DNA of 64,000 bases from an uncultured Thermoguttaceae bacterium (GTDB lineage Bacteria; Planctomycetota; Planctomycetia; Pirellulales; Thermoguttaceae). The position numbers and the translations under genes are program-made. The notes under the pieces were generated by a model. The model worked only from the letters and a program-made list of their open reading frames with translations. It did no database searches and was not told the DNA's origin. This document shows, piece after piece, positions 35,074 through 51,351 of this stretch (its first letter is position 1; each line of letters starts with the position of its first letter). The DNA lies in assembly GCA_937951625.1 (NCBI GenBank), contig CALFBP010000034.1:1-64000 (forward strand). The letters are read 5' to 3'.

Positions 35074-36195
35074 ATGTCGCGGCAGGCGATCTTCGAGGCC
35101 AGCGTGCGGTTCTTCTTGGAGCCGATCGCCGCGCTTTTGGAAGACGACTCAGTGACCGAGATCATGGTCAACGGCCCGGACACGATCTACGTCGAGCGCC
35201 GCGGCCGACTGATTTACACGGGTCTCTCGTTTGCGAGCGAAGACGCTTTACTATCGGCCATCCATAACATTGCCCAATGGGTGGGTCGGGAGATCACCGA
35301 GGAACACCCGGTGCTCGATGCCCGATTGCCCAACGGCTCCCGCGTTCACGCCATCATCCCCCCCAGTGCGCGGACCGGACCGTATCTGACAATCCGCAAG
35401 TTCAGCCGGGAAGCGCTCACGCTGGACGATTTGGTACGTCTGGGCAGCCTTTCGCCCATCGCCAAGGAGTTCTTGGAACTCTGCGTGGTCTTGCGGAAGA
35501 ACATTTTGATTGCCGGGGGCACGGGCACGGGCAAGACCGTTTTGTTGGGCGCCTTGTCGCGGGCCATTCCGGAGGAAGAGCGGATCGTCGTTATCGAGGA
35601 TACCTCCGAATTGCGGCTGATCCAGTCGCACTGCCTGTATCTCGAGGCCCGACACGCTGACGTTCGCGGTCGCGGGGCCCTCAACGTCCGGCAATTGTTC
35701 ATCAATTCGCTCCGCATGAGGCCCGATCGGATCATCGTCGGCGAGGTCCGTTCCGGCGAGGCCCTGGACCTGGTGCAGTCCATGCTCAGCGGTCACGCCG
35801 GCAGCCTGTCGACCATCCACGCCGAAACCGCCCGCGACGCCCTGATCCGCTTGGAGACCTTGGCGTTGATGTCCGATGTGGAGATTCCCGTCTACGTTGC
35901 CCGGGCCCAAGTGGCGGCGGCGATCCATCTTGTGGTGCAGATTGCCAGGTTTTCGGAGGACGGTTCCCGCAAGATCACCCGGATCACCGAGGCCCGCGGA
36001 CTCAACGAAAACAACCAGTATCAATTGACTGATTTGTTCGTCTCGCGTTTGCGGGGCCGGACCCCCGATGGGCGGTTGATCGCCGACTTGGAGCCGACCG
36101 GCGAGTTGCCCAGTTTCGCCAACGACTTGAGCGAGCGGGGCATGGAACATTTGGTGCGGTTAACCGGCCAGTTGTGGTCGAAACAATTGCAATGA
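35074..36195 (+). CDS. cpaF: CpaF/TadA-family pilus assembly ATPase (no FHA domain)
   Basis: Protein of 373 aa. It is a secretion ATPase that powers Tad/type IVb pilus assembly. The Walker A motif GGTGTGKT (Lys154), Asp box VVIEDTSELRL, Walker B MRPDRIIVGEVRSGEALDL and His box STIHAETA are intact. The N-terminal domain (EIMVNGPDTIYVERRG) is short, so there is no extra domain before it. It is the first gene of the locus, ahead of the pilin-like genes. A second, larger CpaF with an FHA domain lies at 42929. Confidence 0.93.
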   Translation: MSRQAIFEASVRFFLEPIAALLEDDSVTEIMVNGPDTIYVERRGRLIYTGLSFASEDALLSAIHNIAQWVGREITEEHPVLDARLPNGSRVHAIIPPSARTGPYLTIRKFSREALTLDDLVRLGSLSPIAKEFLELCVVLRKNILIAGGTGTGKTVLLGALSRAIPEEERIVVIEDTSELRLIQSHCLYLEARHADVRGRGALNVRQLFINSLRMRPDRIIVGEVRSGEALDLVQSMLSGHAGSLSTIHAETARDALIRLETLALMSDVEIPVYVARAQVAAAIHLVVQIARFSEDGSRKITRITEARGLNENNQYQLTDLFVSRLRGRTPDGRLIADLEPTGELPSFANDLSERGMEHLVRLTGQLWSKQLQ

Positions 36196-41140: not shown

Positions 41141-42058
41141 ATGACCACATTGGGCGAATTAGCGAAACGCATTTCGACGTGGACTTCCCGGGGGCTGGTC
41201 TCGGCCATGATCCTGGTGGCGGGACTGGCGTTCGGACGTCAAGTACTCCAGTGGTGGCGAAGTGACGACGAACCTACCAGCGCGGCTGTTTCGCGGCCAT
41301 TGAAAGTCGGTTCCCTCGGCGAAATTGGACTGGATCATACCCTCCAGTTTGGCGGCAGCGACTGGACGGTGGTTCGGGGATTCGTCTCGGGCGATGCCTC
41401 CGAGGCGCTGCGCCAGCTCCAGGCCCGATGTGCGGAAACGATTGGCGCCGCGGCATTGCCCAAATCGACCCCCGGACCCGCGGAACGCGACTTGCTTCAC
41501 CGGATTACCGGGCAAAAGCCCCTCCTGGAGCAGCCGGGCCAGTGGCGAATCGACGCCCTAGACCCAGGCTTTCCATTGGTCTTGGGTTCGCGCGAGGTTC
41601 CCTCGGGGGACAACGCCTCGGGAGAGCAAGTTGGCAAATCCACACGTCGCGTGGTAACCTTGGGAATGGCGATGCCCATTGGCGACAAGCTTTGGACCAC
41701 ATACACATTCCACGCGAACTCCTATAACAAGGGGGAGGAATACACCGAAAAGGTTGATTTGATCCCCACTGGAAGCAGCAAGGTGATGACTATCCGGGCT
41801 ACTGACGGAACGAGCCTGGTCGTTTTCAGGGGACCGGATCCCAACGGAGAGTGGGTTACGTTTTACGATTCGTGGCTTCAGCGGCACGGTTGGAGAATAT
41901 CCTGGGGCTGGGTGGACCGGGGCGGAACACGGTCGGTGCATGGCATCCGTTCACAAGGGGGGGCTTGGCAGAGAATCGATGTGCTACTGGTGAGAGATGG
42001 CATCGGCCATTCGGCGGGTGTGGTGTTTCAGACCCCCGCTGTCGATGGGAAACCATGA
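41141..42058 (+). CDS. Membrane-anchored hypothetical protein within the Tad locus
   Basis: Protein of 305 aa. One membrane segment near the N-terminus (GLVSAMILVAGLAFGRQVL) and a soluble extracytoplasmic body. No family recognised. It lies between a TadE-like gene and CpaB on the same strand, so a structural or regulatory role in the pilus is likely but not proven. Confidence 0.55.
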   Translation: MTTLGELAKRISTWTSRGLVSAMILVAGLAFGRQVLQWWRSDDEPTSAAVSRPLKVGSLGEIGLDHTLQFGGSDWTVVRGFVSGDASEALRQLQARCAETIGAAALPKSTPGPAERDLLHRITGQKPLLEQPGQWRIDALDPGFPLVLGSREVPSGDNASGEQVGKSTRRVVTLGMAMPIGDKLWTTYTFHANSYNKGEEYTEKVDLIPTGSSKVMTIRATDGTSLVVFRGPDPNGEWVTFYDSWLQRHGWRISWGWVDRGGTRSVHGIRSQGGAWQRIDVLLVRDGIGHSAGVVFQTPAVDGKP

Positions 42059-42128
42059 CTAAGATGCCAATCCTTTGGGGTTCAGACGTTCGAGGCCGCA
42101 CGCCGCCGATTTCGAGAGGCAAATCGCG

Positions 42129-42932
42129 ATGAAGGGCATCCAAGGGTTGATCGTGGCGATCGGGTTGGGGATTGCCGGGGCGTTGTTCAATTTCGCCTAT
42201 CTGGCCAACCGTTCGCGCGATGTCGAGAAAGTGGCCTTCATCGGTATCAAGGAAGACAAGACGATCGGCCGCGGCGAGCTGATCAGTGAAGATAGTTTGG
42301 AACCGGTGGAGATTCCCCGTCGTTGGGTGGGCAGGTTGGAAGACTACGCTTTCCTGTGGTCGACGCGTGCCACGGTGGTGGGCCGGCGTCCGTGGCGGGC
42401 GTTGGAGGGGGGATCGTTGCTCCTGCGGGCAGACTTGAAAACCCCGCCTCAGGAACTAGTGTTTGGCGTCAACTTGCCGCCGGGCGTCGAGGAGCGGGCG
42501 ATCGGCGTACCCATCGACACGCGAAAATTCGTGACCTCGTTGGTTCAGCCAGGCGATCTGGTGACGTTCATCCTCGCGGCCGGGCGGCGCGAAGGACCCA
42601 CGCTGGCTTCCGACGCCTCGAAGCCGCCAGCCGCCGAAAAAGGGGAACCCAAGGCCGCTTCGCCCGCTGGGCAAACGGAAGCACCGTCTGCCGAGGGCAT
42701 CGAAAAGTGCGGTCCGTTCAAGGTCCTATCCATCGGTAACCGTTTGGGCAGCTACGACGTGATGATGGCGGCGAAGATCCCGCAAACCCAGGAAGGCGTG
42801 ATGACGATCCTGGTCCGCTACGAGAACGGCAAGATGGACCCTCAGGCCGCCCGGCTGCTCCGCCACCTCCAACAGACCAATTCGCAGCCGCTGGCCTACG
42901 AGTTGCATCCGCGGACGCAGAGATTGGAATGA
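42129..42932 (+). CDS. CpaB/RcpC-like pilus assembly protein
   Basis: Protein of 267 aa. One N-terminal membrane helix (GLIVAIGLGIAGALFNFAYL) and an SAF-like domain, with GRGELISEDSLEPVEIPRRW and GVPIDTRKFVTSLVQPGDLVTFI. CpaB proteins act at the outer membrane with the secretin, but that gene is not in the window. The ATG at 42129 follows GAGAGG by 9 nt. The stop overlaps the start of the next gene by 4 nt. Confidence 0.82.
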   Translation: MKGIQGLIVAIGLGIAGALFNFAYLANRSRDVEKVAFIGIKEDKTIGRGELISEDSLEPVEIPRRWVGRLEDYAFLWSTRATVVGRRPWRALEGGSLLLRADLKTPPQELVFGVNLPPGVEERAIGVPIDTRKFVTSLVQPGDLVTFILAAGRREGPTLASDASKPPAAEKGEPKAASPAGQTEAPSAEGIEKCGPFKVLSIGNRLGSYDVMMAAKIPQTQEGVMTILVRYENGKMDPQAARLLRHLQQTNSQPLAYELHPRTQRLE

Positions 42933-44872
42933 AGATCTGGTTCAACAAAATCAGCGAGAGCCGGCGGACGCTGGTCGAAACGGACCGCAGCGAGGTGACC
43001 ATCGGCCGCGATCCCGACAACGTTGTGGTGCTGCAAAGCCCGCTGGTGTCGCGGCATCACGCCGTGGTGCGGGCGGTCAATGGGCAACTCGTCTTGGAAA
43101 ACGTGGGGCTGAATAGCTGCCTGGTCGGCGAAGTCGAGGTCGGCGGCAACCAGACCGTGGCCTTCGAGCCGGGAACCAAGGTCCGCATCTGGCCCTTCAC
43201 GCTCACCTTCGAGGCCGAGCAGGCGGCGACCATTACCCGCGCCGACCTCGAAAACCACCTCCGCTCGATCATGGCCGACCTGGAACTGCGAATCCATCGC
43301 AAGCTCTTGGAACGGCTCGATCTCTACGAGTTCGAGCGGAATCAGGCCCGGGACGCAGAAAGCATCCTGCTGTTGGAGAACAACATCGAAGATGTGTGCC
43401 GCGACCTGGGAGTTTTCAGTAAGGAGAATGAAGCGCTCCTGGAAGAGATCACGGGGCTGGTGCTCCGCGACCATCTGATCAACCAGATCATCATGGAAAC
43501 CGCCCAGGACGAGTTCTTCGACCTGGCCACGCTGACCTCGAACGAATTCGACGTGCCAGCGACGTTGGTGCCGGAGCGCGAGGCGGAGCTGCACGGCCTG
43601 TTGCAATTCGTGCGCGAGCGGTTGAGCTTCCACGAATGCCGCGACGTGACCGAGCAGATCGGCCGCGTCGAGGCCCGGTTCAACGACATCTTCCCGCTCC
43701 TCCGGCCGCACCTGCACCAGGAACTCCGCAAATACTTGATCCTTCGCACGCTGAAGAAGGACCTGAAGGACACGATTTTCGGCTTTGGGCCGCTCCAGGA
43801 TTTGCTGCGCGCGCCGTCGGTCACGGAAATCATGGTGGTGGGCCGCGACCAGATTTATGTCGAGCAGAACGGGGTGATCGAGAAATCCGGCCGGAGGTTC
43901 ATTTCGGACAAGGTGACCGAGGCGATCATCGAACGGATCGTGGCCCAGGTGGGCCGGCGGATCGACAAGAGCCAGCCGCTTGTCGACGCCCGGCTGCCCG
44001 ACGGGTCCCGCGTCAACGCCATCATCCCGCCCCTGGCGGTCAAGGGGCCTTGCCTCACCGTGCGCAAGTTCCCCTTGCAGCGGCTGACCATGGATGAATT
44101 GATCGAGTTGGGCAGCATCAATAAAGCGGCGGCCACGTTCTTGCGGGCGTGCGTGGTGGATCGCCGCAACATCTTGGTGAGCGGTGGAACGGGGACGGGC
44201 AAGACCACGTTGCTGAACGTGCTCTCCAGTTTCATCCCCTACAAGGAACGCATCATCACCATCGAGGACACGGTCGAGCTGCGGCTGCATCAGGACCACG
44301 TCGTCACCTTGGAGGCCAAACCGCCCAACGTGGAGGGCGCTGGGGCCTACACGATCCGCGACTTGGTCAAAAACGCCTTGCGGATGCGGCCGGACCGCAT
44401 CATCGTGGGCGAGTGCCGCGGCCCCGAGGCCTTGGACATGATCCAGGCCATGAACACCGGCCATGACGGCTCGATGACCACGGTCCACGCCAACAGCGCC
44501 CGTGAGGTCATCGAGCGATTGGAGGTGCTGGTGCTGATGGCGGCCGACTTGCCGGTGGTGTCGATCCACCGCCAGTTGGTGTCGGCCATCGACGTGATCG
44601 TCCACATCAGCCGGCTGCCGGGCGGGCGGAGGGTGGTGACCCAGATCGCTGAGGTCACCCGTTACGATCCCGATGAAAAACAGGTCGTCGTGTTGGATAT
44701 TTTCAACTATCGCAACGGCGTCTCCTTGGAGCCGACGGGGTACTTGCCCTCGTTCATCGATTCCTTGGTGGAAAAGGACCTTTTGGACTTGGAGTTTCTC
44801 TACGGCCGGGCTTGGCGGACAACGCCAACCATTGCGCCGCCGCCCCCGGCGGCGACCCTCACGGCCGATTGA
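42929..44872 (+). CDS. cpaF: CpaF-family pilus ATPase with N-terminal FHA domain
   Basis: Protein of 647 aa. Residues ~1-100 form an FHA domain: VTIGRDPDNVVVL, SRHHAVV and N62 in LNSC, the residues that bind phosphothreonine. About 100 residues of helical linker follow. The CpaF core includes Walker A SGGTGTGKTT (Lys425), TIEDTVELRL, MRPDRIIVGECRGPEALDM and TVHANSA. FHA domains bind phosphothreonine, so assembly may respond to the kinase gene at 47995. It is one of two CpaF copies, and the larger. Confidence 0.93.
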   Translation: MKIWFNKISESRRTLVETDRSEVTIGRDPDNVVVLQSPLVSRHHAVVRAVNGQLVLENVGLNSCLVGEVEVGGNQTVAFEPGTKVRIWPFTLTFEAEQAATITRADLENHLRSIMADLELRIHRKLLERLDLYEFERNQARDAESILLLENNIEDVCRDLGVFSKENEALLEEITGLVLRDHLINQIIMETAQDEFFDLATLTSNEFDVPATLVPEREAELHGLLQFVRERLSFHECRDVTEQIGRVEARFNDIFPLLRPHLHQELRKYLILRTLKKDLKDTIFGFGPLQDLLRAPSVTEIMVVGRDQIYVEQNGVIEKSGRRFISDKVTEAIIERIVAQVGRRIDKSQPLVDARLPDGSRVNAIIPPLAVKGPCLTVRKFPLQRLTMDELIELGSINKAAATFLRACVVDRRNILVSGGTGTGKTTLLNVLSSFIPYKERIITIEDTVELRLHQDHVVTLEAKPPNVEGAGAYTIRDLVKNALRMRPDRIIVGECRGPEALDMIQAMNTGHDGSMTTVHANSAREVIERLEVLVLMAADLPVVSIHRQLVSAIDVIVHISRLPGGRRVVTQIAEVTRYDPDEKQVVVLDIFNYRNGVSLEPTGYLPSFIDSLVEKDLLDLEFLYGRAWRTTPTIAPPPPAATLTAD

Positions 44873-44971
44873 TTAGATCACGGTGGGCAAGGGGCAATCG
44901 ACTTCAACAGGGCCATCCACCCGGCGCGAAGCGAAACAGTCGACTGAAAACTATCCTTGGGCAGTGACTCG

Positions 44972-45823
44972 ATGTTTTCGGACCCCCTGGCGATCCTCGG
45001 TTCCCTGTGCATTGGCCTGGCGGTAGCCGCGCTGGCTTGGTTCGGCGGCGATTTGTTTTCCGGACCGCTGCGGTGGATCGAACAGGACTTGACCGAGAAA
45101 CTTCGGCGGCTCCGGATGCCGGTCAGACGGCTGCGTCAGTACCTCATGCTCTGGTTGGCTGGGATGGTCCTGGTGTTTCTCGGCTTCTGGCTGGTGCTCG
45201 AGAATCTGGTGTTCGCCGTCCTGCTTGCCGGATTGATTTTGCTTTCGCCCTGGTATCTGATCCGGCGGCTGGCCGAGTGGCGGCGTCTGAAGATCGAGGA
45301 CCAACTGGCCGATGCCATGGTGACGCTGGCCAACTCGGTTCGGGCGGGGCTTTCGCTGGCCCAATCCATGGAAATCCTCGCCGCCCAATGTCCCAAACCG
45401 ATCAATTCCGAGTTTTTCCAGATCGCCGCCGAGTACCGGCTCGGCAAACCCCTGGACCGGACGCTGGTCGAGGCCAAACAGCGGCTCAAGAGCGAGAACT
45501 TCGCGCTGTTCGCCGCGGCGCTGTTGGCCAGTCACGAGAGCGGGGGCCGGCTCAATGAGACCGTCGAGCGGATTGCCCAGTCGGTCCTCGAAATGCAGCG
45601 CTTGGAACGCAAAGTGAAATCCGAGACCGCCCAGGCCCGAAAGTCGGCCATCTACATGGCCTTGGTCCCCCCGGTGATCCTCGTCGTATGGTATTTCGTC
45701 GACCCGGTCAATACCGCCAAGCTGTTCACCGAGGTCTTCGGCCACATCCTCTTGGCGCTTGTGGTGGTGATCGACATTGTGGCGTACTTTTGGGCCCGGG
45801 CGATCTTGAATCCCGACATTTAA
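44972..45823 (+). CDS. TadB-like inner-membrane platform protein
   Basis: Protein of 283 aa, type II secretion F (T2SF) family. Membrane segments at the N-terminus and C-terminus flank the cytoplasmic T2SF domain (ADAMVTLANSVRAGLSLAQS; ESGGRLNETVERIAQSVLEMQ). An upstream in-frame TTG at 44957 exists; ATG 44972 is preferred. It forms the Tad platform together with TadC, which follows. Confidence 0.85.
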   Translation: MFSDPLAILGSLCIGLAVAALAWFGGDLFSGPLRWIEQDLTEKLRRLRMPVRRLRQYLMLWLAGMVLVFLGFWLVLENLVFAVLLAGLILLSPWYLIRRLAEWRRLKIEDQLADAMVTLANSVRAGLSLAQSMEILAAQCPKPINSEFFQIAAEYRLGKPLDRTLVEAKQRLKSENFALFAAALLASHESGGRLNETVERIAQSVLEMQRLERKVKSETAQARKSAIYMALVPPVILVVWYFVDPVNTAKLFTEVFGHILLALVVVIDIVAYFWARAILNPDI

Positions 45824-45884: not shown

Positions 45885-46853
45885 GTGACGCAAGCGGTTG
45901 AGGTCATGCAGTCGTTCGTGGTTCTTGCCGTAACATCGGCGGGAAGTTTCGGCCTCCAGGTAGCGGCCAGCGCGGTGGTGGGGGTGGCGGTGTCCGTGTT
46001 CGCTTGGTGGGTCCTGACGGTGCTCCGCACCGAGGACATCCAGCAGGGGGCCGAGTGGCGTTACGACATCAGCCGCATCAACGAGCTGCGGCGCCAGAGC
46101 GTGCCCTACCGAGTGCTTCAGCCGCTGATTGGCTTGTTGGCCAAACTCAACCGCCTCATCCTCCGCGACGCCCTGCCAGAGATCCAGCGGCATATCCACG
46201 CGGCGGGCCTGCCGCGGTTCTGGTTGCCCGAGGAGTACCTCGGCTGGCTGGAAGTGATTGCGATGGCGGTCTCGCTGGTCTACGTTTACTTTTTCGTGTC
46301 GTGGTTCGGCGTGGCGGGGCTGTTGCCTGCCGCAGCGGCGTTCCTGTTGACGGTCTTCGCCCTGCGAGTGCGCCTGGCCAACCAGGCGGCCTTGCGCCTG
46401 CGGATCATCAAGCGGCGGATGCCCTTCTTGCTGGACTTGCTCACGCTATTGATGGAAGCCGGTTCGACGTTCCTGAACGCCCTGGCCCAGGCGGTCGAGG
46501 AGTTTCGCGGGCACCCCGTCGCCGAGGAGTTTGGCCGGGTGCTGGGCGACATGCAGCTCGGCAAGACCCGGTACGAGGCCTTCACCGCCATGCGGGACCG
46601 GCTCAACGACGACGAGATCACCAGCATCATCGGGGCGATCCTCCAGGGGGAAGAGCTGGGCACGCCGCTTGCCCAAGTTTTTCGCACCCAGGCCGACGTG
46701 TTGCGTTTGAAGCGGACGCAACGGGCGGAGACGGTGGCGGGCGAGGCAGGCGTGAACATGTTGCTGCCCGCCGTGCTGGTCATGGTGGCCACGGTCTTGG
46801 TGATCATCGGTCCGTTTTTGCCCAATATCCTGTCCTTCGGTTTGAGCATGTGA
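45885..46853 (+). CDS. TadC-like inner-membrane platform protein
   Basis: Protein of 322 aa, T2SF family. N-terminal hydrophobic segments, then the T2SF region (MPFLLDLLTLLMEAGSTFLN and NDDEITSIIGAILQGEELGT), and a C-terminal membrane pair (LLPAVLVMVATVLVIIG). Start GTG 45885 or ATG 45906; both lack a strong SD. It ends the pilus part of the locus. Confidence 0.85.
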   Translation: MTQAVEVMQSFVVLAVTSAGSFGLQVAASAVVGVAVSVFAWWVLTVLRTEDIQQGAEWRYDISRINELRRQSVPYRVLQPLIGLLAKLNRLILRDALPEIQRHIHAAGLPRFWLPEEYLGWLEVIAMAVSLVYVYFFVSWFGVAGLLPAAAAFLLTVFALRVRLANQAALRLRIIKRRMPFLLDLLTLLMEAGSTFLNALAQAVEEFRGHPVAEEFGRVLGDMQLGKTRYEAFTAMRDRLNDDEITSIIGAILQGEELGTPLAQVFRTQADVLRLKRTQRAETVAGEAGVNMLLPAVLVMVATVLVIIGPFLPNILSFGLSM

Positions 46854-47994: not shown

Positions 47995-50900
47995 ATGGAA
48001 CCCACCCCCCGGTACGAAATCCTGAACACCATTGCCACCGGCGATTTCGCCACGGTATTCCGGGCGAGGGATCGCGAGTTGGGACGCGAGGTCGCCATCA
48101 AGCAGATTCACCAGCAGTTCCTTCACGACCCCCGGCAACTGGAACGCTACTGGCGCGAGGCCCAACTTCTGGCGACCCTCCAGCATCCCAACATCCTCAC
48201 CATCTACGACGTGGTTCGTCCCCGCGGGTGGCTGATCCTAGAGTTGATGCGGGGCAACCTCCAGCAGAGCATCCAGGCAGGGCCGATGGACCTCGACGTG
48301 CTTCGGGGGGTGTTGATCTGCGGGCTGAACGCTTTGGCGTTTCTGCACGCCAACGGCGTGATCCACGGCGATGTAAAGCCCAGCAACATGCTGATCGACC
48401 CCCAGGGCCGCGTCAAACTAGGCGATTTTGGTCTGGCGCGTCGGGCGAGCAACGAACAGGGCAGCTTGCTGAAGGGCACGACCAAATACATGGCGCCGGA
48501 ACTGGTCTCCAACCAATTCGGCCCGGTCGGTCCGGCCAGCGACCTGTATTCCCTTGGTTTCACGGCCTATGAGTTGCTTTGCGGCCCGCAGTTCGAGTCG
48601 CTCTTTCCCAGTCTGCTGACCTATGGCCGTGACCGGCAGATTGCCTGGCTGATGTGGCATGCGGCCCCGGATCGGCACTTGCCGGAGATCGCCCGCGTGC
48701 TCGAGGGCGTGCCTCCCGATTTGGCTAGGGTCATCGAGCGGATGGTCGTGAAGGACCAGTCGCGTCGGTACGCCTCGGCGCAAGACGCTTTGCGGGACCT
48801 GCGGAGCAGCCAACTTCCCGCGGCCCGGGTGGAGTTGACCTCGCCATCCCCCGCGACGAAAACGCCTCAAAAGATGCCCTGGAAGCGGATCGGCGCCATC
48901 GCGGCCATGGCCTTTTCGGTGGTGGTCTCCATCCTGATGCTGCTGCCCAGCCCGAGCAAGCCCCCGGCCGAGCCCCAGGAGCCTCAGGCGGTCCAAGGCA
49001 TCGTGCGGAACATCTATCCTTCCGAAGCCCGCATCGCCATCGAGGCCGTGCCGGACAACCGCCGTGAGGAACTGGAATTCAAGCCGATCGACAAGTTTTA
49101 CATCAACAAGCGGGAGGCGGGATTCCGCGACCTTCGGGTGGGCGACCAGGTCGAGATCGAAGTCCTCCGCGACGAGCAGAAGCGAAGAATCACCATCGTC
49201 CACGCCACCCGGCCGGAGTCCCAACAGGGACGCATCAAGGCCGTGGAACCGGATGCTGGCACATTCACCTTGGCCTATGAGACCGAGCAAGGCCCTGCCG
49301 AATTGACCATCCGGGTGCCGCAGACCGTGAAAATCCTCTTCAATGGCCAGGACCAGCTCGCCGGGCGGCCGGTGACGTTGGCCGATCTCCGCCCCGGCGA
49401 TCGCGTGGATCAGGTCAGTCATTTGGCGGAAGAAGGCGGCACACGCCGCGCTACCGCCTTGGAAGTGCAACGCGAGGTCACGCTCAAGGGCATCATCCGT
49501 GAAAAGGTTGATGCAAAAAAACAAGAATTGGTGTTCGACGAGGGCGAGGGCCCTAATGCCTCGCGGATCACCCTGCCGATCGCGCCGGAATGCGTGGTAA
49601 CGATCAACGATCGGACCGTGTTGGAGCAACGCGCCGTCACGCCTGCCGACCTCAAGCCCGGCGACAAGGTCACCATCATCCGTGATCGCCGCGTGGTGCG
49701 GGTGGACGCCTACCGGACGCTGGGACAAGCCGGCGTTGTGCAATCCGTTCAGCCCAACGCCATCGAAGTACTTCTGGAAGGTCAAAACAAGAGTACGACC
49801 TACACCGTGGACGCGAACACCAAGGTGACGCTGGGTGGAGAAGTCGTGGCTTTGGGCGAACTCCGGCAGGGCGACACGGTCGATATTACCCACGACTCGC
49901 CCGACGCGGATAAGCCTCGGGCACTGACGGTGGCCGCCCGCCGAGCGGCCGATCCAACGCGGTGGGCGATTCTGATCGGCATTGGGAACTACGACGATCC
50001 GTCACTGGGCAAGCTCGAGTATGCGGCGGACGACGCTGCCTTGCTGCACGAAATCGCTTGGAAACGCTTCCATGTCCCGCAAAACCAGGCCCTGCTGCTC
50101 ACCGACGCCAATCAGCCCCGGCTCCAGCAGGCGATCAGCGGCATCCTGGAGAGGGTCCAGCCCGACCATACCCTCGTCGTCTACTTTGCTGGTCACGCCT
50201 TTCAAGACGCGGACCAGACCGTCTATCTTGCGCCCAAGGATTTCAATCCGAAACAGATGGCGAAAACCGGCCTGAGCCTGCAATGGCTGGTCGATACCTT
50301 AGAGTCCTGCAAGGCCAAGGAGAAAATCCTTTTGTTGGATACCCGCGGTGGAGGGGGCGCGGGCGGGAGATCGCTGTCGTCGGCCGAGATGTTCCAATCG
50401 CTGAAAGGTCCGCCGGGCCAGGCCCCGCTCCGCACCGTAACGGGTATCGCCAGCAGCTCGCCCGGCCAACAAGCTCGCACGCTTCCCGACAAAAAGCATG
50501 GTCTGTTCGCGTGGGCGCTTTCCGAAGGGTTGTCGGGAAAAGCCGATAAAAATAACGACAACCGTTTGGAAACGACAGAGCTGTACAGCTATCTGGCCGA
50601 GGCGATGGGCGGGCTGGCCGACTCGATCCAGCAGAAGCAGACGCCTCAGCTCTTCCTGCCCGACAATCGTCCCCCGCGACTCTCGGCCGAAGCGAAAAAG
50701 GAGATTCGGGGACTGGCTGCCCTGGCGCGGCAGAACGAGGTGGATTTGAAGTCCGCACGGAGCATGTATGATGCGGCCCAGGCCGCGGCCGGGAAAGAAA
50801 TCGATCCGAAGTTGGTTTTCGGTCTGGTGTTGTTGAAGTCGCGGCAGGCCAGGGCGGATGTGGCCAAGCATTTCGAGAGCGTCAAGGCCGAGGACCCGAC

Positions 50901-51351
50901 GTTGGTGTTGCCGACGGCGGCCCTGGCCTGGCTCCGTTTTGAATTGGGTCGGCCCGCCTCCGGTGTCGAGGAATTGATTGAATTGGTCGAAAGGATCGCA
51001 AGACGAAAAGGCCCCGAGGCCGATCCCTCCTGGTCGCCCCAGGTCTTGGCCCCGTGGATGGGGCGTCTGCGCGAGTATGCGGCCGTGATCGACGAAAAAC
51101 GGAGCACCTCGCCGCAGGCGCTCGCCAAGCTCGACGAGGCTGTGGCCGGTTTGGGCGAGGCGGCCGTCCAACTCTATGAGGAGGGCCGAAAACAGACGCG
51201 TGCCAGGCTCGCGGAGATCGACGCGCAGATCGAATCGGGCGATGAAGCCACGAGGGCCCGACTCCGCATCGCCAGGCGGAAAATCACCGAATACGCTCAG
51301 TTCCCCTTCGACGCCGCGTTGGAGAGCATCTCGGCCCGCTTGGATCGCTAG
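47995..51351 (+). CDS. Membrane Ser/Thr protein kinase fused to a caspase-like pseudoenzyme domain
   Basis: Protein of 1118 aa. Kinase domain, residues ~5-280: glycine loop IATGDFATVFRA, Lys36, HGD (His124-Gly-Asp126) in place of HRD, DFG at 144-146 and APE at 167-169. One membrane helix near 296-320. Repeated beta modules (VQGIVRNIYPSEARIAIEA, GRIKAVEPDAGTFTL) fill 330-650. A caspase/peptidase C14 domain begins at Trp657 (WAILIGIGNYDD): it keeps His734 (YFAGHAF), but where DxCxxG is expected, the sequence reads LLLDTRGGGG, with Arg784 in the Cys position. A C-terminal helical region follows. The kinase is likely active; the caspase part probably acts as a binding or sensor domain. Located right after the zinc-ribbon gene. 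Confidence 0.9.
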   Translation: MEPTPRYEILNTIATGDFATVFRARDRELGREVAIKQIHQQFLHDPRQLERYWREAQLLATLQHPNILTIYDVVRPRGWLILELMRGNLQQSIQAGPMDLDVLRGVLICGLNALAFLHANGVIHGDVKPSNMLIDPQGRVKLGDFGLARRASNEQGSLLKGTTKYMAPELVSNQFGPVGPASDLYSLGFTAYELLCGPQFESLFPSLLTYGRDRQIAWLMWHAAPDRHLPEIARVLEGVPPDLARVIERMVVKDQSRRYASAQDALRDLRSSQLPAARVELTSPSPATKTPQKMPWKRIGAIAAMAFSVVVSILMLLPSPSKPPAEPQEPQAVQGIVRNIYPSEARIAIEAVPDNRREELEFKPIDKFYINKREAGFRDLRVGDQVEIEVLRDEQKRRITIVHATRPESQQGRIKAVEPDAGTFTLAYETEQGPAELTIRVPQTVKILFNGQDQLAGRPVTLADLRPGDRVDQVSHLAEEGGTRRATALEVQREVTLKGIIREKVDAKKQELVFDEGEGPNASRITLPIAPECVVTINDRTVLEQRAVTPADLKPGDKVTIIRDRRVVRVDAYRTLGQAGVVQSVQPNAIEVLLEGQNKSTTYTVDANTKVTLGGEVVALGELRQGDTVDITHDSPDADKPRALTVAARRAADPTRWAILIGIGNYDDPSLGKLEYAADDAALLHEIAWKRFHVPQNQALLLTDANQPRLQQAISGILERVQPDHTLVVYFAGHAFQDADQTVYLAPKDFNPKQMAKTGLSLQWLVDTLESCKAKEKILLLDTRGGGGAGGRSLSSAEMFQSLKGPPGQAPLRTVTGIASSSPGQQARTLPDKKHGLFAWALSEGLSGKADKNNDNRLETTELYSYLAEAMGGLADSIQQKQTPQLFLPDNRPPRLSAEAKKEIRGLAALARQNEVDLKSARSMYDAAQAAAGKEIDPKLVFGLVLLKSRQARADVAKHFESVKAEDPTLVLPTAALAWLRFELGRPASGVEELIELVERIARRKGPEADPSWSPQVLAPWMGRLREYAAVIDEKRSTSPQALAKLDEAVAGLGEAAVQLYEEGRKQTRARLAEIDAQIESGDEATRARLRIARRKITEYAQFPFDAALESISARLDR

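Follow-up and report, generated by a model that had tools for sequence, protein, structure and literature searches.

What can a caspase fold do once its catalytic cysteine has gone, when it is part of a membrane kinase encoded beside a pilus locus? The question is raised by one gene in a 64,000-nucleotide stretch of DNA from an uncultured Thermoguttaceae bacterium (assembly GCA_937951625.1, contig CALFBP010000034.1, positions 1 to 64,000), referred to here as the window. The protein it encodes combines a Ser/Thr kinase domain, a single transmembrane segment, beta-strand repeats and a caspase fold (Table 1), and this architecture is conserved in 54 orthologues. The open reading frame and the residues named in a first-pass annotation of the sequence (Lys36, HGD, DFG, APE, His734, Arg784 and the caspase-fold start WAILIGIGNYDD, which begins at residue 657) were all found exactly where that annotation had placed them. 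Our analysis suggests that the protein is probably a receptor-like transmembrane kinase that controls the Tad (type IVc) motor via an FHA domain, with the pseudocaspase serving as a non-proteolytic sensor or scaffold.

The caspase domain has the fold of active C14 proteases (p20 and p10-like) and lacks their D-x-C catalytic Cys. The annotation had put Arg784 in the position where a caspase needs Cys, with His734 retained, and both the sequence and a profile alignment, in which column 784 falls on the catalytic Cys of MALT1, agree with it. With a bacterial caspase fold, His734 present and Cys replaced by Arg, the domain is almost certainly a pseudo-orthocaspase without caspase-type proteolysis. 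No alternative catalytic Cys is found in the structural model. The single Cys of the domain, C772, lies 12 residues amino-terminal of Arg784 and, in both sequence and model, just ahead of the strand that runs into the catalytic loop, and it therefore cannot stand in for the nucleophile. The sequence D-C-x is frequent among orthologues, but that Cys is one position amino-terminal of the catalytic position.

The loss of Cys is common to the family. A first search found seven full-length orthologues in assemblies of Pirellulales and other planctomycetes (best segment 47-65% identity); they have S, S, T, S, G, T and S at the Cys position, and all seven have HGD in the kinase domain. Adding an ectodomain-profile search of 397 Planctomycetia genomes to these first-found loci gives 54 distinct caspase-bearing orthologues (G606/L017 and G453/L018, which are identical contigs, are each counted once), in which the Cys position is occupied by S (18), T (12), C (10), G (4), A (3), V (3) and R, N, P or D (1 each). 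The catalytic Cys is thus missing in 44 of the 54, the catalytic His is retained in 42, and an intact His-Cys pair is present in 8; the commonest combinations with a replaced Cys and a retained His are His-Ser (15/54) and His-Thr (12/54). Orthologues with an intact Cys, which the annotation had considered as a sign of a sequencing change, therefore do exist, but a sequencing error or one-off change can be ruled out because all seven first-found orthologues also lack the Cys. What is private to the window protein (1/54) is the Arg itself, together with a two-residue gap behind it, rather than the Cys loss. On a tree of the kinase domains, residue 784 shows 24 or more changes and the His 11 or more; for the presence of Cys the minimum is 8 changes with regain permitted, and without regain 20 losses are required. 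These repeated changes indicate that the catalytic dyad has been abandoned many times, and the tree shows a mixed family in which many of the changes were independent.

Despite the missing Cys, the domain keeps a complete caspase fold. The AlphaFold model has a mean predicted local distance difference test score (pLDDT) of 93.8 and a predicted template modelling score (pTM) of 0.91, and its best matches among solved structures, with Z-scores of 19-21, are MALT1, caspase-6, caspase-7, caspase-9, plant metacaspase-4 and a Geobacter caspase homologue. The MALT1 paracaspase, the caspase-6 zymogen, Arabidopsis metacaspase-4 and Geobacter GSU0716 share the fold over about 200 residues, but at only 15-19% identity, and unlike them the domain described here has no catalytic Cys and has other partner domains. 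Judging from substitution patterns, the Cys-less domain is under purifying selection and is not junk: in close Cys-less pairs, the ratio of non-synonymous to synonymous substitution rates (dN/dS) is mostly 0.07-0.2 for the caspase domain and mostly 0.005-0.08 for the kinase domain. In the pairs with usable synonymous divergence (dS), the values are about 0.07-0.16 and about 0.005-0.07, respectively, with one very close and one distant pair higher. Conservation in the caspase domain is strongest in an EF-hand-like loop (D851-x-N853-x-D855-x-x-L858-x-x-x-E862) and its flanking structural residues, rather than in the dyad, and the ligand positions of the loop are kept in 50-52 of 52 orthologues. 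We propose that the loop could bind Ca2+, a suggestion with about an even chance of being right.

The topology of the protein predicts on which side of the membrane this domain lies. There is one strong transmembrane segment, and the basic residues next to it are on the side of the kinase, which is therefore expected in the cytoplasm, with the remainder of the protein predicted to be outside; a transmembrane-like segment follows the kinase at the equivalent position in 59 of 59 scorable orthologues. The region between the kinase and caspase domains has a weak Pfam match to DUF5666, and CusF is matched in some orthologues. When the whole ectodomain was used in a fold search, the best rows listed were caspases only, with no structural match for the beta repeats. 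No PASTA repeats were matched in the ectodomain at E 0.001, and the PASTA-kinase model NF033483 reaches 188 bits, below its cut-off of 450, and covers the kinase domain alone. A defence-system reading was rejected, as the PADLOC matches listed (mad6, PD-T4-6 and others) span the kinase domain only.

The kinase domain carries the residues of a Hanks-type Ser/Thr kinase: the beta-3 Lys K36 (in VAIK), D126 within HGD (124-126), N131, DFG (144-146) and APE (167-169) are all intact in the window protein, and among 60 orthologues K36 is conserved in 57, HGD in 59, and DFG and the catalytic-loop Asn in all 60. The HGD motif in place of HRD, also seen in the first-pass annotation, defines a non-RD kinase and is no mark of a dead one. 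A kinase inactivated by HGD can be ruled out, since the motif is near-invariant in a family under strong constraint and another kinase of the window's genome likewise has HGD. On the strength of these residues, we expect the kinase to be active with considerable confidence.

The predicted target of the kinase lies in the adjoining genes. The kinase gene is the last of a Tad-pilus operon encoding CpaB, FHA-TadA, TadB, TadC, an MJ0042 protein and the kinase, within a locus that has the Tad gene set (TadB/C, CpaB, TadE/G and prepilin peptidase). The motor ATPase belongs to class III CpaF/TadA, as it has an amino-terminal FHA domain in which GR, SxxH and N are present. Orthologous loci of the same taxonomic order have this gene arrangement, and so do two genomes from a different family within the class, whose FHA-TadA retains 69-70% identity. 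The Tad locus begins with the gene for a second TadA/VirB11-like ATPase, which has no FHA domain (window 35074-36195), and its equivalents occur several kilobases upstream of other FHA-TadA loci; the two motors in one Tad locus may reflect a division of labour. Two further observations concern the locus: the MJ0042 protein remains beside the Tad genes where the kinase has relocated (L118), and a conserved Tad-locus gene without a Pfam match (window 41141-42058) is found at the equivalent place in orthologous loci.

The association extends beyond gene order. Among the 397 genomes, the kinase and a close FHA-TadA (at least 63% identity; the next set is at 51%) occur together in 55, the kinase alone in 1, FHA-TadA alone in none and neither in 341, which gives a Fisher p of 4e-67 without correction for phylogeny, at thresholds that were chosen after the hit lists were seen, both of them in wide gaps. 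The two genes lie within 12 kb of each other in 20 of the 55 genomes, and contig breaks account for some of the others. In the one-contig genomes G291, G488 and G105, contig coordinates separate them by 4.6, 7.4 and 5.4 Mb. Within genus g379, five genomes have both genes and four have neither, and G609, the one sampled kinase-less member of the window's family, is also without FHA-TadA. A functional coupling of the kinase to FHA-TadA is likely from this distribution, and the co-occurrence suggests a dedicated switch linking an outside signal to the pilus. The first-pass annotation had described a membrane kinase that bears a pseudocaspase and is encoded next to a Tad locus; every test that was run agrees with this description, and the near-perfect co-occurrence with an FHA-bearing Tad ATPase makes the Tad link stronger than could be seen from the window.

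The FHA domains of these ATPases mostly retain the residues used for reading phosphothreonine. FHA domains bind phosphothreonine through GR, SxxH and N(G) residues (PMC1262709), and among 58 kinase-associated FHA domains R27 is kept in 58, S41 in 51, H or Q at position 44 in 58 and N62 in 58. Fifteen more distant FHA-TadA proteins of the same class, which belong to another ATPase set and do not have this kinase as a neighbour, keep S41 in 1 of 15 and H44 in none. In more distant FHA-TadA proteins outside the kinase-associated set (L105-L115, L163-L172) the phospho-binding loop is degenerate (AEEAA versus SRHHA), so that their FHA domains probably no longer read phosphothreonine. S41 has also been lost in seven kinase-associated genomes, which form four lineages on the tree, and these seven include all four catalytically damaged kinases (three species of one genus with K36R, and G365 with HSD and K128N). 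Deviations at near-invariant kinase positions average 7.0 in the seven S41-loss genomes versus 1.7 (p 1e-4, without phylogeny correction). One genus (G257, G613, G484; L056, L091, L092, L118, L149, L150) shows a reverse pattern, in which the His-Cys pair is intact, the beta-3 Lys of the kinase is replaced by Arg and Ser41 of the FHA domain by Ala.

These features can be arranged into a signaling route. The ectodomain, made up of the beta repeats and the caspase fold and perhaps loaded with Ca2+ at the EF-hand-like loop, would sense a ligand, a pilus component or the state of the envelope, and what it senses would be passed on through the single membrane segment to change the activity of the kinase, which might then phosphorylate a Thr of its own or of a Tad component, and docking of the TadA FHA domain on the phosphothreonine would gate pilus assembly or retraction. 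More tentatively, Planctomycetia may possess a two-part switch in which an outward-facing pseudocaspase receptor kinase, as a Ca2+-dependent or peptide sensor, controls the type IVc motor by phosphothreonine-FHA docking, and in which the loss of catalytic or phospho-reading residues in one partner is followed by decay of the other; this wider proposal is possible rather than probable.

Several observations weigh against a receptor kinase acting on the pilus motor through a pseudocaspase sensor. The gene pairs are found mainly in two families, and their co-occurrence is not corrected for phylogeny; G547 has the kinase without FHA-TadA, as confirmed by a directed search. A single ancient event may account for the difference in FHA motif between the ATPases with and without the kinase. 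The tracking of kinase damage with S41 loss is suggestive only, because the four S41-loss events come with just two independent events in the kinase; a tree-based independent-pair test had too few events and no power, and G488, G601 and G725 have lost S41 without an obvious loss of kinase catalytic residues. The EF-hand-like loop is inherited, since several other planctomycete caspase homologues also have it. Finally, five genomes of one clade (L097-L101; G719, G735, G544, G747, G472) have lost the caspase domain wholly while retaining the kinase, transmembrane segment and beta repeats, which means that the protein family can do without the pseudocaspase. In G678 the apparent lack of a caspase domain is an artefact of the contig end, and the three loss events counted on the tree are thus reduced to two at most. 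Separately, L104 (G087) has a kinase open reading frame of 634 amino acids with no caspase domain and an in-frame stop within the profile match, and is possibly a decayed copy.

The loss in this clade, together with the turnover of residue 784 and of the His, is what would be expected if the caspase domain were an evolutionary remnant or a passive spacer on a Tad-linked kinase, with no role in sensing. We consider this unlikely, as the fold is intact, Cys-less pairs have dN/dS values far under 1, the EF-hand-like loop is kept in nearly every orthologue and so is the domain itself. The annotation's view of a sensor or scaffold rather than a protease holds with respect to the lost Cys, the kept fold and the purifying selection, while a sensing or scaffolding role is still something we infer. 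A Ser or Thr at the Cys position could, in principle, preserve hydrolase activity, and these two residues are the commonest replacements where the His is kept; however, the window protein has Arg, which excludes it for that protein, and the occurrence of G, A, V, P, N and D at the same position with high turnover leaves this explanation with hardly any probability in the family. Scarcely more probable is the idea that the domain acts on an active caspase of the same cell, as its dominant-negative regulator or its decoy. For inactive caspase domains of animals and of bacterial conflict systems such roles have been suggested (PMC3501461, PMC7159879), but no second Peptidase_C14 domain is present in the window's genome, which is 97.9% complete, and the predicted topology places the caspase domain outside the cytoplasm. 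A different objection concerns the target: the kinase may act on other proteins, and its co-occurrence with FHA-TadA would then reflect joint inheritance of one ancestral operon, as the conserved gene order and the concentration of both genes in two families might suggest. This is rather improbable in view of the three genomes in which the genes are retained together though megabases apart, their joint absence within genus g379 and in G609, and the retention of phospho-binding FHA residues only where the kinase is present. Control of the Tad motor by a pseudocaspase-bearing kinase is accordingly the reading that we prefer.

Table 1. Features of the kinase-caspase gene and of the neighbouring Tad genes in the window
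Feature	Position	Strand	Remarks
CpaB-like protein	42075..42932	+	
Tad motor ATPase (TadA/CpaF) with amino-terminal FHA, predicted kinase partner	42929..44872	+	FHA E 3e-10, T2SSE E 7e-63
FHA domain of TadA, residues 23-87	42995..43189	+	GR(26-27), S41-R-H-H44 and N62 intact
TadB-type membrane protein (T2SSF)	44957..45823	+	
TadC-type membrane protein (T2SSF)	45885..46853	+	
MJ0042-type zinc ribbon with one transmembrane segment	46902..47990	+	conserved TadC neighbour; ends 5 bp before kinase start
Transmembrane Ser/Thr kinase with pseudocaspase ectodomain, whole gene	47995..51351	+	1118 amino acids, ATG start
Protein kinase domain, residues 7-265	48013..48789	+	Pfam Pkinase, E 6e-46
Single transmembrane segment, residues ~296-321	48880..48957	+	basic residues flank it on kinase side
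About four beta-strand repeats, residues 330-650, predicted extracytoplasmic	48982..49944	+	DUF5666-like
Caspase fold, residues 655-887	49957..50655	+	Pfam Peptidase_C14 (PF00656), E 7.5e-10, above gathering cut-off
His734, catalytic His position, retained	50194..50196	+	motif YFAGH
Arg784 in catalytic Cys position	50344..50346	+	motif LLLDTRGGGG; MALT1 catalytic Cys column
EF-hand-like loop DKNNDNRLETTE, residues 851-862	50545..50580	+	orthologue conservation
Helical TPR-like carboxy-terminal region, residues 890-1118	50662..51348	+	absent from many class-level orthologues

Pseudo-orthocaspases, transmembrane kinases with FHA partners and FHA-bearing CpaF are all already known. Pseudo-orthocaspases have been described in cyanobacteria and alphaproteobacteria (PMC6426788; Synechocystis SyOC, PMC7889975), the dyad was reported as conserved in only 64% for Planctomycetes (Asplund-Samuelsson 2012; PMC3501461), and bacterial conflict systems commonly contain inactive caspase domains (PMC7159879). 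The domain described here resembles pseudo-orthocaspases in its bacterial p20/caspase fold, its substituted His-Cys pair and a role thought to be independent of proteolysis, but it forms part of a transmembrane Ser/Thr kinase, on the side predicted to be extracytoplasmic, and is linked to a Tad pilus, and its family has mostly His-Ser and His-Thr rather than Tyr-Ser. Like the PknB/Stk1-type kinases, near which FHA proteins are encoded in M. tuberculosis clusters (PMC1262709), it has a cytoplasmic Hanks-type kinase, a single transmembrane segment, an extracytoplasmic sensor of repeated domains and an FHA protein as the likely reader; unlike them, it has beta repeats and a pseudocaspase rather than PASTA domains in the ectodomain, an HGD (non-RD) loop, and an FHA domain that belongs to a pilus motor ATPase. 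Class III CpaF/TadA proteins, known mostly from betaproteobacteria (PMC12019362), likewise have FHA at the amino terminus of a Tad motor ATPase. That account discusses no kinase partner, and 'phosphorylat' is absent from its text, whereas here a specific kinase is assigned through gene order and co-occurrence. Our literature search, which left subscription journals largely outside, found no description of kinase-caspase receptors or of a kinase partner of FHA-TadA.

Pseudo-orthocaspases are common and their functions mostly obscure. The one described here has a predicted output, the kinase, and a predicted target, the FHA-bearing pilus motor, which makes the role of a pseudocaspase testable. 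FHA domains on Tad ATPases, in turn, have been catalogued without a partner kinase, for which a concrete candidate is now given. If the proposal is true, the caspase fold would have been put to new use as a receptor domain, and this in a phylum where kinases and unusual cell-surface biology abound.

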